This document shows positions 18,303 to 29,500 of a DNA stretch of 36,056 nt, piece after piece. The first letter of the stretch is position 1, and every line of letters begins with the position of its first letter. The notes beneath the pieces were generated by a model that saw only the letters and a list, made by a program, of their open reading frames with translations, had not been told where the DNA came from and ran no database searches. The stretch lies in contig JARYMK010000009.1 in NCBI GenBank assembly GCA_029907165.1, forward strand, positions 1 through 36,056, given 5' to 3'. The stretch comes from Anaerolineae bacterium. GTDB taxonomy: Bacteria; Chloroflexota; Anaerolineae; DTLA01. The position numbers were made by a program, and so were the translations under genes.

Positions 18303-18518
18303 CTATCTTGCGCTGAGAATCAGCAGGGCCGCGCCGGCGATGAAGAAGACCACGGTTCCGATCTGCCGACGGCGGTACAGGCGGTACAACCTGTCCGGCG
18401 GCAGGCGAAGCGGCGTCGGATCGCCCCAGACCAGGTTGGGGCGAAACGCGCTCAAGATGCTGATGAGCAGCAAGACCAGCCCCGCAGCCGCCGTTAGCCA
18501 GTTCACCTGCTGAAACAC
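18303..18518 (-). CDS. Small predicted two-helix membrane protein, uncharacterised
   Basis: 71 aa: MFQQVNWLTAAAGLVLLLISILSAFRPNLVWGDPTPLRLPPDRLYRLYRRRQIGTVVFFIAGAALLILSAR. Two hydrophobic stretches; probable GTG start with GAGG upstream; same strand between acsD and acsC. Confidence 0.7.
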   Translation of the reverse strand: MFQQVNWLTAAAGLVLLLISILSAFRPNLVWGDPTPLRLPPDRLYRLYRRRQIGTVVFFIAGAALLILSAR

Positions 18519-18535
18519 CCTCTACCTCTTCGGCG

Positions 18536-19923: not shown

Positions 19924-19965
19924 AATCGGGCCTCCTCAGGGACAGATAAGTTCCAGACGTGCACA

Positions 19966-19994
19966 AGGATAGCCTGGGAGACGCCGTCCGTCAA
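19966..19994 (-). promoter_or_regulatory. Candidate internal promoter for CBS-acsD-acsC
   Basis: Minus-strand TTGACG (19989-19994) - 17 bp - TATCCT (19966-19971), 43 bp upstream of the CBS TTG start. Confidence 0.45.
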
Positions 19995-20048
19995 ACACGG
20001 CGCAACCCAGGCTCGGCGCGGGCGGTCGTCCGCGACACGCCGTTGGAA

Positions 20049-20108
20049 GCGGCCAGCCGCCAGCATCCGGGATTCGCACCCGACCGCCCGATGCTGACGG
20101 CTGACCGC
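20049..20108 (-). other. Intercistronic 19-bp hairpin immediately after acsB
   Basis: Arms 20049-20067 and 20090-20108. The minus-strand transcript forms a 19-bp stem with only two G-U wobbles, 22-nt loop. Starts 9 nt after the acsB stop. Confidence 0.75.
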
Positions 20109-20116
20109 CTTCGCTC

Positions 20117-24754: not shown

Positions 24755-24827
24755 GCTCTCTTCCCTCGCTTGATTGTGGATGGTGCAGGTTTTTCGCCGA
24801 CTTGTGCCCGCCAAGGGGTCTGCGCCC

Positions 24828-24856
24828 ATTATAACAATTTCGGCGCGAGCCCACAA
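24828..24856 (-). promoter_or_regulatory. Candidate promoter for HMA-acsA-acsB
   Basis: Minus-strand TTGTGG (24851-24856) - 17 bp - TATAAT (24828-24833). An 8-9-8 palindrome AGCCCACA/TGTGGGCT (24848-24872) overlaps the -35. Confidence 0.5.
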
Positions 24857-24932
24857 ATTGATTATGTGGGCTTATCTACCAGGAAACTCTGTGTAGCTTC
24901 CTATCAAGCAAAGTTGGCATCATGGCACGCCC

Positions 24933-24959
24933 GCTGGACGGGCTACAAGCCCGCCCAGC
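24933..24959 (-). terminator. Hairpin downstream of fhs
   Basis: Minus strand GCTGGGCGGGCT-TGT-AGCCCGTCCAGC: 12-bp stem with one G-U, 3-nt loop, 16 nt after the fhs stop. No T-tract immediately after. Confidence 0.5.
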
Positions 24960-24974
24960 AGGCAAAGGTTTGGA

Positions 24975-26849
24975 CTAGAACAGGCCCACCACCCGGCCGG
25001 TCTCCAGGTCAAGGTCCACGTCGGTGAAGGCGGGACGGGTCGGCAGGCCGGGCATGGTGCGTATGGTGCCGCACAACGGGTACAAGAACCCGGCCCCAAC
25101 GCTGGCGCGGATGTCCACCACCGGCAGCGTCCAACCGCGCGGCGCCCCCTTGATCGTCGGGTCATGCGTAAACGACAGGTGCGTCTTCGCCATGCAGATC
25201 GGCAGGTGGCTGTAGCCCAGTTTGGTGAACAGGGCAATCTTCTCGTTCGCCTCCTGCGTGTACGTAACCCCGTCGGCGCGGTAGATTTCGCGCGCGATGG
25301 TCTCTATCTTCTCCTTGATGGACATATCGTCCGGGTACAGGAAGTGGAAGTTGGACGGCTTCTCGCACGCCGCGATGACCGCCTCGGCCAGTTCCGCGCC
25401 GCCTTCGCCGCCCTTGGCCCAGACCTCGCTCACGTAAGCCCCTTCCGCGCCAGCCTGAACTGCGGCTTGCTTGATGAGGTTGATCTCGGCATCGGTGTCG
25501 GTTACAAACCGGTTGATGGCGACCACCACCGGTACACCGAACTTGCGGGCGTTCTCAATGTGCTGGATGAGGTTGGGCAAGCCCGCCTCAAGAAGGCGCA
25601 GGTTCTCCTCCTTGTAGGCCTTGCCCAGCGGCTTGCCGGGGACGACGGCCGGACCACCACCGTGCATCTTGAGGGCGCGCACGCTGGCGACCATAACCAC
25701 GCAGTTGGGCACCAGACCCGAGACGCGGCACTTGATATCCATGAACTTCTCCATGCCGCAGTCCGCGCCAAAGCCGCTCTCCGTTACCACGTAGTCGGCC
25801 AGTTTGAGTGCAATACGGTCGGCGATGATGGAATTGTTGCCCTGGGCGATGTTGGCGAAGGGGCCGCAGTGCACAAATGCCGGACTGCCTTGCAGGGTTT
25901 GCAGCAAGTTGGGCATCACGGCATCCTTCAGAAGAACGGTCATGGCGCCGGCCACGTTCAGGTCTTCGGCCGTGATAGGCTCGCCCTTCTTGTTGGTGCC
26001 GATGACAATGCGCCCCATGCGCTCGCGCAGGTCCGCCAGGTCGCTGCACAGGGCCAGCGCCGCCATGATCTCGGACGCCACCGTGATGTCGTAGCCGGTC
26101 GCCCGCGGCGGGCCATCGTTGACGGTGCCGAGGCCGACCACGATGTTCCGCAGCGCCGCATCGCTCACGTCCACCACACGCCGCCACTGAATGGAGTAGG
26201 GATCAATATCCAGACGGAACATGCGCTCGCGGTCCGCATCGCTCAGGTCCGAGGGGCGCTCCGACTGGATGCCCAACTTCGCCAGGCGCTTCCGCATGGA
26301 AGGCGTGTACTGGTCATCGGGGCACAGCGCCTTGGCCAGGAAATTGGTGCTCCAGCGCGACTCTTTCTGGATGCGGTTGTCAATAGCCGCTGCCAGCAGG
26401 TTGTTGGCCGCGCCCACAGCGTGGATGTCGCCCGTTAGGTGCAGGTTGAAGTCCTCCATGGGTACAACCTGGGCGTAGCCGCCGCCCGCCGCGCCGCCCT
26501 TGATGCCGAAGGTGGGGCCCTGCGACGGCTGGCGGATGCACGTGAAGACCTTCTTCCCCAGGTAGGCCAGGCCTTGGCTCACGCCGATGGTGGTTACCGT
26601 CTTGCCCTCGCCCAGTGGCGTGGGAGTGATGGCCGTAACGTCAATGTACTTGCCGTTCGGCCGGTCTTTCAGCCGCTCCAGGACGCTGAGGTGCACCTTG
26701 GCCTTGTACTTCCCGTACAGGTCCACCTCGTCGGGGAGCAGGCCGATTTCCTCCATGATCTCGGTGATGGGCCGGAGTTTCGCTTCCTGCGCGATCTCAA
26801 TGTCGCTGGGTACGGGGTTCCTGCGTTCTACGTTGAGTTGCTTTCCCAT
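24975..26849 (-). CDS. fhs: Formate--tetrahydrofolate ligase
   Basis: 624 aa. TPTPLGEGKTVTTIGVSQGLAYLGKKVFTCIRQPSQGPTFGIKGGAAGGGYAQVVPMEDFNLHLTGDIHAVGAANNLLAAAIDNRI, the formyl-THF synthetase signature. Confidence 0.98.
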   Translation of the reverse strand: MGKQLNVERRNPVPSDIEIAQEAKLRPITEIMEEIGLLPDEVDLYGKYKAKVHLSVLERLKDRPNGKYIDVTAITPTPLGEGKTVTTIGVSQGLAYLGKKVFTCIRQPSQGPTFGIKGGAAGGGYAQVVPMEDFNLHLTGDIHAVGAANNLLAAAIDNRIQKESRWSTNFLAKALCPDDQYTPSMRKRLAKLGIQSERPSDLSDADRERMFRLDIDPYSIQWRRVVDVSDAALRNIVVGLGTVNDGPPRATGYDITVASEIMAALALCSDLADLRERMGRIVIGTNKKGEPITAEDLNVAGAMTVLLKDAVMPNLLQTLQGSPAFVHCGPFANIAQGNNSIIADRIALKLADYVVTESGFGADCGMEKFMDIKCRVSGLVPNCVVMVASVRALKMHGGGPAVVPGKPLGKAYKEENLRLLEAGLPNLIQHIENARKFGVPVVVAINRFVTDTDAEINLIKQAAVQAGAEGAYVSEVWAKGGEGGAELAEAVIAACEKPSNFHFLYPDDMSIKEKIETIAREIYRADGVTYTQEANEKIALFTKLGYSHLPICMAKTHLSFTHDPTIKGAPRGWTLPVVDIRASVGAGFLYPLCGTIRTMPGLPTRPAFTDVDLDLETGRVVGLF

Positions 26850-26919: not shown

Positions 26920-27798
26920 CTAGCGCGCGAGCAGACGGGCCGCCTGCAGGACGTTGAGCATCAGCATGATGTTTGTCATCGGGCCGGTGCCGCCGGGCAC
27001 GGGTGTGATGGCGCCCGCCACCTCCACAGCGGACGCGAAGTCCACATCGCCGACCATTTTACCATCCACGAAGTTGACGCCAAAATCAATCACTACGGCG
27101 CCGGGCTTGATCCAGTCGCCCGTGATGAGACCCGCCTTGCCCACCGCGGCGCACAGGATGTCCGCCTGGCGGCAGACGCCCGCAAGGTCCGCCGTGCGCG
27201 AGTGGGCCAGCGTTACGGTGGCGTTCTCGCGCAGCAGCAGGAGCGCCATGGGCTTGCCCACGATGTTGGACCGGCCCACGACCACGGCGTGTTTGCCAGC
27301 CAGTTCCACCTTGTAACGCTTCAGAATCTCCATTCCCCCGGCGGGTGTGGCGGGGACGAAGAAATCCAGCACGCCTGCGGGCCTGCCTGCGGGAGCCACC
27401 TGGGCCAGTCGCCCCGTGTTCACCGGATGCACGCCGTCCACGTCCTTTTGCGGCGCGATGGCCTCCTTGATTACCGCCTCGTCAATGCCTTTGGGCAGCG
27501 GCTCCTGCACCATGATGCCATGCACGTTGGGGTCCGCCGACAGGCTCGCCACCACGCGCACGATTTCTTCCTGCGATGCCGACTCGGGCAGCGCGTGCAG
27601 CGCAAAGCCCATGCCAGCGCCTTCAAACGTCTTGCGGATGGCGTTGGCGTAGGAGACCGAGGCCGGGTCCTCGCCCGCCCGCACGATGGCCACCGAAGGT
27701 GCGTAACCGTGCGCGGCCTTGAACTCGGCTACGGCAGCCACCACTTCTTCCTTCAGGGTCTTGGCCAGTTCTTTTCCATCCAGAATCAGCGCGGACAT
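26920..27798 (-). CDS. folD: Bifunctional methylene-THF dehydrogenase / methenyl-THF cyclohydrolase
   Basis: 292 aa from MSALILDGKELAKTLKEEVV. GIMVQEPLPKGI; KDVDGVHPVNTG; VVGRSNIVGKPMALLLLRENATVTLAHSRT. The track ORF start at 28062 overlaps fchA and is not needed. Confidence 0.96.
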   Translation of the reverse strand: MSALILDGKELAKTLKEEVVAAVAEFKAAHGYAPSVAIVRAGEDPASVSYANAIRKTFEGAGMGFALHALPESASQEEIVRVVASLSADPNVHGIMVQEPLPKGIDEAVIKEAIAPQKDVDGVHPVNTGRLAQVAPAGRPAGVLDFFVPATPAGGMEILKRYKVELAGKHAVVVGRSNIVGKPMALLLLRENATVTLAHSRTADLAGVCRQADILCAAVGKAGLITGDWIKPGAVVIDFGVNFVDGKMVGDVDFASAVEVAGAITPVPGGTGPMTNIMLMLNVLQAARLLAR

Positions 27799-27809: not shown

Positions 27810-28442
27810 CTATAGTTTTGAGACCACGAGGTCGTAGATTTCCTCTTTCAATTGCGCCTTGCCAGACAGGAGACCGTCCAGCGCGGCGCGCTCGCGGGCC
27901 ACGAATTCCGCGTCCTTGATGGCGGCCAGGTTGATGAGCACGTTGAGTGCCGCCGACCGCAGCGCCGCTTCCGCCAGCAGCGCCGCCACACCCGCGTCGG
28001 ACACCGCGCCCACGTTCCCCTTCTCCGCGATGGGCTTGCAGAGATGCAGAACCTGAACGCACGCTTCGGCAATCTGCATGGGGACTTTCGTGGCGTCGCG
28101 GAGGATTTCCTGAATGGCGGCGGTGCGGGCGGCTTTCTGTTCGTCGGTGTCCTTGGGCATCTTGTACGCAGAGGAGAGGCGGTAGTACACGGCGATGTCT
28201 TCGTCAATCAGGGCGGTGAGGCGGGCGCGGAGTGCTTCGGTTTGGGCCAGCAGCGCCTGGATGTCCTCCTGCACGTCGGCGTACTTGGGCTTGCCGACGG
28301 TCAGGTTGCACACCATGCTGGCAAGAGCGGCGCCCAAGGCCCCCACGAGGGCCGCCCCGCTCCCTCCCCCGGGCACGGGCGCTTGGGACGCAAGTTCATC
28401 CAGGAACTGGGCAACGGTCTTCTGGCTGAATGACTCAGGCAT
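27810..28442 (-). CDS. fchA: Cyclodeaminase/cyclohydrolase (FTCD_C) family, probable methenyl-THF cyclohydrolase
   Basis: 210 aa from MPESFSQKTVAQFLDELASQAPVPGGGSGAALVGALGAALASMVCNLTVGKPKY. SD GGAAGGAGG upstream. Operon with folD and fhs. Confidence 0.9.
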   Translation of the reverse strand: MPESFSQKTVAQFLDELASQAPVPGGGSGAALVGALGAALASMVCNLTVGKPKYADVQEDIQALLAQTEALRARLTALIDEDIAVYYRLSSAYKMPKDTDEQKAARTAAIQEILRDATKVPMQIAEACVQVLHLCKPIAEKGNVGAVSDAGVAALLAEAALRSAALNVLINLAAIKDAEFVARERAALDGLLSGKAQLKEEIYDLVVSKL

Positions 28443-28474
28443 GTCCTTGCCTCCTTCCGGTAGATTCGCGCAAC

Positions 28475-28496
28475 AAAAAACTCGCTGGACGGCGAG
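28475..28496 (-). terminator. Intrinsic terminator / attenuator in the fchA leader
   Basis: Minus strand CTCGC-CGTCCA-GCGAG followed directly by TTTTTT, 33-54 nt upstream of the fchA ATG and before its SD. Confidence 0.6.
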
Positions 28497-28921
28497 CGGG
28501 AAGCACAGCGCGGCCTGGCCGCCACGTACGCGAAGGGATGGATGCACCTACCGACCGGCGTCGGTGAAGCGCCCCCTCGGTCAGGGCTTGACGGTAGCCT
28601 CCATGCTCCATGTATCGCCGTTGATAGTTTCTCAAGTCCGCCGATGGCGGGTTCAAGATCACGGTTTCAAAGACGTCGCGCAGCCGTGTAGGCCGGCGTG
28701 GGTGTCAAGTCTGTGGTCAGGGGGACAGGATTGTCCACCGAGCGCGTCCAGCGGGCCGAAGAGACGGTGAGATAGCCGCCGGTTCGCAGCGCGGCCATAC
28801 ATGCGCGCTGCGGCACAGCGGATAGTGCCGAGTTCCGAGATACGATGCATTGGCCCTGGCAGCCGGGTCATAGTCCTCTGCTCTCGGAGCGATGAGCGTG
28901 GGGTTCGTTCCCACTTTCACC

Positions 28922-28950
28922 ATTATACCATGGATCGCCAAAATAGGCAA
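28922..28950 (-). promoter_or_regulatory. Candidate sigma-A promoter of the Wood-Ljungdahl cluster
   Basis: Minus-strand TTGCCT (28945-28950) - 17 bp - TATAAT (28922-28927); about 470 nt of untranslated leader before fchA. Confidence 0.6.
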
Positions 28951-29164: not shown

Positions 29165-29500
29165 ATGCGCGCCCAAACTCGTTTGCTTATTATATCAACA
29201 ATCATCGTTGTCTCGCTTTTCTTTTCTACAGTTACCCTATCCGCACAAGCGCCCCGGATAGAAGAACCATCTGCTGTCTCGTTCACAACATCCACGCCTG
29301 AGTTGGGGGATGCCGCTCTGTGGGCAGGGCTCCTGCAGGCCACGGGCGGCGAGGTGCGCATTTCCTACCACGCCTACACCGGCAAGGTGCGCTTCATCGG
29401 CACCGACCCCACCCGTCCCATCCCCCGCCCCGAAGGTCTCAAGCCCGACGCCCCGCCGGAAGGAGTGGCGCTCTCATTCCTGCGAACGTACGGGGAATAA
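29165..29500 (+). pseudogene. Truncated secreted peptidase-propeptide (FTP-like) fragment
   Basis: 111 aa from ATG 29165 with SD GGAGGGGGAGA. Signal peptide MRAQTRLLIISTIIVVSLFFSTVTLSAQA, then GGEVRISYHAYTGKVRFIGTDPTRPIPRPEGLKPDAPPEGVALSFLRTYGE-stop, which looks like the start of a fungalysin/thermolysin propeptide without a catalytic domain. Confidence 0.55.

Follow-up and report, generated by a model that had tools for sequence, protein, structure and literature searches.

In an uncultured Chloroflexi bacterium, the Wood-Ljungdahl operon is preceded by an untranslated leader of approximately 473 nucleotides (28443-28915, minus strand) which, on balance, is predicted to function as a cis-acting transcription attenuator specific to its genus. 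Attenuation is the best-supported reading because three species have all retained a terminator together with a predicted competing antiterminator. The leader lies in a window of 36,056 nucleotides (the whole stretch of DNA that was analysed) from a 3.2-Mb genome, here called G000. The operon is located on the minus strand and begins with fchA (27810-28442; FTCD_C family, formimino/methenyl-THF cyclohydrolase type; PF04961, E 5e-70), folD (26920-27798; PF02882 and PF00763) and fhs, which encodes formate-THF ligase (24975-26849; PF01268), and its further genes encode CODH, ACS, two CdhD-family subunits, a RACo-type protein and a pterin-binding AcsE-like protein. The regulation of Wood-Ljungdahl operons beyond cultured acetogens is seemingly little known, judging from a short literature search, and a conserved promoter with an attenuator-like leader in uncultured Chloroflexi provides a defined piece of about 500 bp that is testable in vitro. 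The leader was compared between three species of one genus, namely G000, G001, which is the most divergent, and G002 (contig JADBJK010000024.1, 'Chloroflexi bacterium isolate Tumba.bins.16').

Transcription of the leader very probably starts from a genuine promoter. The sigma-70-type motif TTGCCT-N17-TATAAT with a TGn-extended -10 element (28922-28950, minus strand; TTGCCT starts at 28950 and TATAAT ends at 28922), already recognised in a first-pass annotation of the sequence, is intact in both G001 and G002 and places the predicted transcription start near 28915. A chance match is unlikely because the 3.2-Mb genome contains 12 instances of TTGCCY-N17-TATAAT and none of the reversed control pattern; the related pattern TTGACR-N17-TATAAT occurs 49 times, again with no occurrence of its reversed control. 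Conservation begins at the promoter, since the alignment with G001 begins within the operon and breaks off shortly upstream of the promoter, with 5% matching over the next 530 bases. Overall the leader is 90% identical to that of G002 and about 67-68% identical to that of G001, where other intergenic stretches of the operon mostly show 63-73% identity with the exception of one that contains an unlisted ORF (84%) and one of 39 bases (90%). Two blocks of the leader are conserved. The 5' block (28855-28918, minus strand; 75% identity to G001 and 95% to G002) holds the hairpin GTGGG/CCCAC (28914-28898) at the 5' end of the RNA and could possibly act as a sensor or stabiliser, and the 184-nucleotide 3' block (28471-28654, minus strand; 78% and 92%, respectively) contains the putative antiterminator/terminator switch. 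The fast-evolving segment between them (28660-28854, minus strand) has 57% identity to G001.

The view that the leader lacks a convincing ORF holds up in comparison: substitutions are spread about evenly over the codon positions of its candidate frame (11/11/6 against G002 and 26/30/32 against G001), unlike those in fchA (0/0/25 and 10/2/83), and the leader is therefore regarded as non-coding. This bears directly on the very improbable alternative of ribosome-mediated attenuation by a leader peptide read from the ATG at 28871 (GAGGACTATGACC). The start-like site is conserved in all three species and a leader ORF in family f12 of the same class varies only by in-frame indels, which would suit such a peptide, but the even spread of substitutions, a 1-nucleotide frame break in G002 relative to G000 and the lack of a run of one codon type in the G000 ORF all argue against it. 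A leader peptide under coding constraint was rejected for this genus on the grounds of the missing codon-position bias and the frame break in G002.

At its downstream end the leader contains a weak intrinsic terminator, CTCGC-N6-GCGAG-TTTTTT (28475-28496, minus strand), with a stem at 28496-28481, a T6 run at 28480-28475 and a hairpin energy of -5.9 kcal/mol. The first-pass annotation had described this element just ahead of the fchA ribosome-binding site (AGGAGG, 28450-28455, minus strand), and it is indeed present there and complete in all three species, stem and U-run being intact in 3 of 3 with a differing loop sequence. The layout is that of an attenuator, with the promoter well upstream of fchA and an intrinsic terminator in between. 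Terminator-like motifs of this kind number 3 in 3.5 kb of sequence versus approximately 2.3 expected by chance. A mutually exclusive antiterminator is predicted in the three species, in which a 5' strand (28601-28633, minus strand) pairs with a 3' strand (28475-28508, minus strand) that overlaps the 5' arm and U-run of the terminator: 28633-28626 would pair with 28482-28475, where the terminator stem gives way to the U-run, 28621-28615 with the terminator 5' arm (28495-28489), and 28609-28601 with 28508-28500.

The 3' block, which was delimited by conservation and not by folding, yields minimum-energy folds whose outer helices are common to the three species (z -2.3, -2.6 and -2.1), a z score equalled by about 7% of the tiles in the window. 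Pairing in core helices 3 and 4 is complete (100%) in each of the three species. Switching the 3' block to the terminator would cost 6.3, 6.9 and 6.7 kcal/mol in the three species. Among 100 shuffles of the sequence upstream, just 2, 1 and 6 match a cost of this size, as do about 3% and 5% of copies of the G000 sequence that were randomly mutated to the distance of G001 and G002. The predicted cost amounts to 4.3-4.6 kcal/mol with the full leader and to about 2 kcal/mol once the RNA extends past 28465. This predicted conflict with the terminator is a stronger point than the z score of the block; its support is moderate because the fold evidence comes from one energy model applied to three related genomes. 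Conservation of the pairing arms does not differ significantly from that of the rest of the 3' block (Fisher p 0.16). Where the first-pass annotation had looked to conservation and covariation in related genomes, conservation is found in the three species of the genus, but compensatory covariation is not, with 0 pairs changed on both sides in a set of only three related sequences.

An unlikely though not far-fetched explanation is that the leader is a long 5' UTR that serves mRNA stability or translation without any regulated termination, the hairpin being either incidental or a means of lowering basal transcription. The weakness of the terminator (-5.9 kcal/mol) and the ordinary folding energy of the leader as a whole (z -0.57, with 23 of 100 shuffles as good) are both compatible with this, as is the finding that the 5'UTRs of cooC1 and fhs1 in Acetobacterium bakii alter the mRNA level with temperature in a setting where attenuation is not clear (PMC6239172). 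Against it stands the retention of the terminator stem and U-run in three species, opposed by a specific rival pairing. Whole-leader stability, being not significant, was discarded as evidence of structure. Four hairpins further upstream were put forward by the first-pass annotation, namely CGGCAC/GTGCCG (28830-28811), CAGCGCG/CGCGCTG (28810-28787), TCCGAGA/TCTCGGA (28888-28834) and GGACA/TGTCC (28736-28723, all minus strand). All of them exist in the G000 sequence, and most fall within the fast-evolving middle segment, but as the main sign of structure they fail for want of conservation: in G001 every one of the four has lost pairs, and in G002 a pair is missing from three of them as well, so they were rejected as conserved structure.

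Under the attenuation reading, RNA polymerase would start near 28915 and synthesise a leader of about 440 nucleotides ahead of the terminator. The end of this RNA would form either the weak intrinsic terminator (28496-28475) or the more stable long-range antiterminator, whose pairing of 28633-28601 to 28508-28475 makes the 5' arm of the terminator and the U-run unavailable. The default state is probably read-through, as suggested by the predicted energies and by the order of synthesis, in which the 5' strand of the antiterminator, as well as the 28609-28601/28508-28500 helix, comes ahead of the 3' arm of the terminator. By default, the polymerase would thus continue into fchA-folD-fhs and the CODH/ACS genes. 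A signal, which may be a protein, a metabolite or another RNA, could engage the 28633-28601 strand, perhaps via the conserved 5' block; with this strand held, the terminator would be released and expression would fall. We infer that termination takes place in the cell, that control runs in this direction and that such a signal exists. A further and improbable explanation takes the leader for a small RNA gene in its own right, running from 28915 to the end of the terminator at 28475 and acting in trans, with fchA being expressed via read-through. It is indeed a conserved non-coding stretch bounded by its own promoter and terminator, and greA leaders that double as trans-acting RNAs have been reported (PMC2965389), but the leader is present in a single copy that is always located directly ahead of fchA in the three genomes, a search for a further promoter-like site between leader and fchA found none, and read-through is the preferred fold.

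Rfam riboswitch families and T-box leaders act in cis and combine a terminator with an antiterminator, and the fchA leader resembles them in both position and layout. Its gene context of folate C1 and corrinoid metabolism, together with the suggestion of the first-pass annotation, would favour a known riboswitch or T-box class (THF, ZTP, cobalamin, SAM, glycine or Moco) that ends in the terminator. Unlike the members of these families, the leader has no covariance-model match: the window and 11 related loci gave no Rfam match at the gathering score, and none of these classes appeared up to E=5 in the leaders of G000 or G001. Such an identity is scarcely credible and was rejected for lack of an Rfam 15 match. 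The first-pass annotation had not matched the leader to a known riboswitch class either, and in the Rfam check no match attained the gathering score and no meaningful hit turned up at E values as high as 5. A DNA search of 397 genomes of the class found the leader in the three members of the genus only, with one copy each, and RNA-model searches of 60 genomes and, separately, of 44 sources, almost all of them fchA loci, likewise confined it to the genus; outside the genus the DNA and RNA-model searches gave only weak, scattered matches. The recurrence at several loci or genera expected of a widespread riboswitch was not observed, the leader being single-copy and restricted to one genus, and no relevant literature on an fchA or formyl-THF riboswitch was found. 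The first proposal of transcription attenuation is supported by the terminator and predicted antiterminator of the three species. A riboswitch or protein-binding leader, which that proposal also named, may apply, but has neither an Rfam match nor covariation nor recurrence in its favour.

Long leaders are also located ahead of fchA in other families of the same class. The fchA-folD loci of f6, f12 and f24 (and fhs in loci long enough to include it) have leaders of 236-337 nucleotides from the -10 element to the coding start, driven by TTTGCCY-N17-TATAAT promoters with a TGTGA-extended -10; a single f24 member has TTGCGT in place of TTGCCY. By a rough ORF count, only 3 of 29 other promoters of the same pattern in these genomes lack a 100-aa ORF within 200 nucleotides. 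The leaders of f6, f12 and f24 are long but unrelated in sequence to that of the genus described here, which suggests that the presence of a long leader recurs at this operon even as the sequence itself is replaced. Long unrelated leaders before fchA-folD in four families point to a shared need for leader-level control. A more far-reaching proposal is that the conserved 5' and 3' blocks together form an RNA sensor, new and restricted to this lineage, which might detect a folate C1 intermediate or a corrinoid, for instance, and would switch the Wood-Ljungdahl operon in its entirety. The f6, f12 and f24 leaders would, on this proposal, have evolved separately to sense the same signal; taken as a whole this is doubtful. 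Further members of the three families were sought and none were found beyond those already known.

Leader ORFs of these families vary in character. The f24 ORF is conserved, yet the substitutions between L016 and L018 (7/5/6 by codon position) are not coding-like and it was dismissed; its frame in L020 has no stop ahead of fchA. Substitutions in the f6 ORF are distributed 23/23/19. Family f12 has a strong terminator (AAACCGCGC..GCGCGGTTT) about 75 nucleotides ahead of the coding start and an ORF of approximately 57-64 aa (MRQS.TGA.SLNH...) that ends about 10 nucleotides ahead of it. The two species concerned (L021 and L017) differ only by in-frame indels in this ORF, with substitutions of 14/9/18 by codon position, and from its sequence it is a possible leader peptide. 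The first 50 or so nucleotides of f24 and f12 leaders (L016, L018, L020 and L021) share a 5'-end hairpin followed by TTTATGNTGTCAA, a common stretch with 80% identity over 36 nucleotides (E 4e-5), after which the leaders differ.

Lineage-specific 5' attenuators such as the rpsL-leader have been surveyed by Naville and Gautheret 2010 (PMC2965389). Like these, the fchA leader has a terminator shortly ahead of the first gene and a predicted antiterminator, and leaders precede the same gene in distant relatives without sharing sequence or structure. Unlike the surveyed examples, the gene in question is fchA of a Wood-Ljungdahl operon and the sequence is confined to one genus. Wood-Ljungdahl 5'UTRs of 41-64 nucleotides are known from Eubacterium limosum clusters (PMC5651825), and 5'UTRs of 48 and 120 nucleotides were tested in Acetobacterium bakii, where attenuation was not clearly observed (PMC6239172). 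The leader described here has in common with these acetogen 5'UTRs that it belongs to a Wood-Ljungdahl operon and is suggested to act after the start of transcription, but it is far longer.

Several other stretches of the window are of interest. The strongest-folding tile (z -5.5 to -6.0) is located at 24801-24984 (minus strand) between fhs and an HMA-domain gene and contains a perfect hairpin, GCCTGCTGGGCGGGC..GCCCGTCCAGCGGGC, and a second hairpin, AGCCCACA..TGTGGGCT, followed by TTGTTATAATGG; the CODH/ACS half of the operon may have an internal promoter or a processing site here. Past the acsB-type gene, the intergenic stretch 19924-20116 (minus strand) carries a long imperfect inverted repeat, GCGGTCAGCCGTCAGCATC ... 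GATGCTGGCGGCTGGCCGC, in a tile with a z score of -4.1. The interval between the two CdhD-family genes (18303-18535, minus strand) contains what looks like a small, unlisted ORF with hydrophobic segments; its 84% identity to G001 lies above that of other intergenic stretches. Divergent from the operon, a short ORF (29165-29500, plus strand) has a signal-peptide-like start and no Pfam match; it is absent from G001, and the gene looks truncated in the window because G002 has approximately 3 kb of extra DNA at this site.
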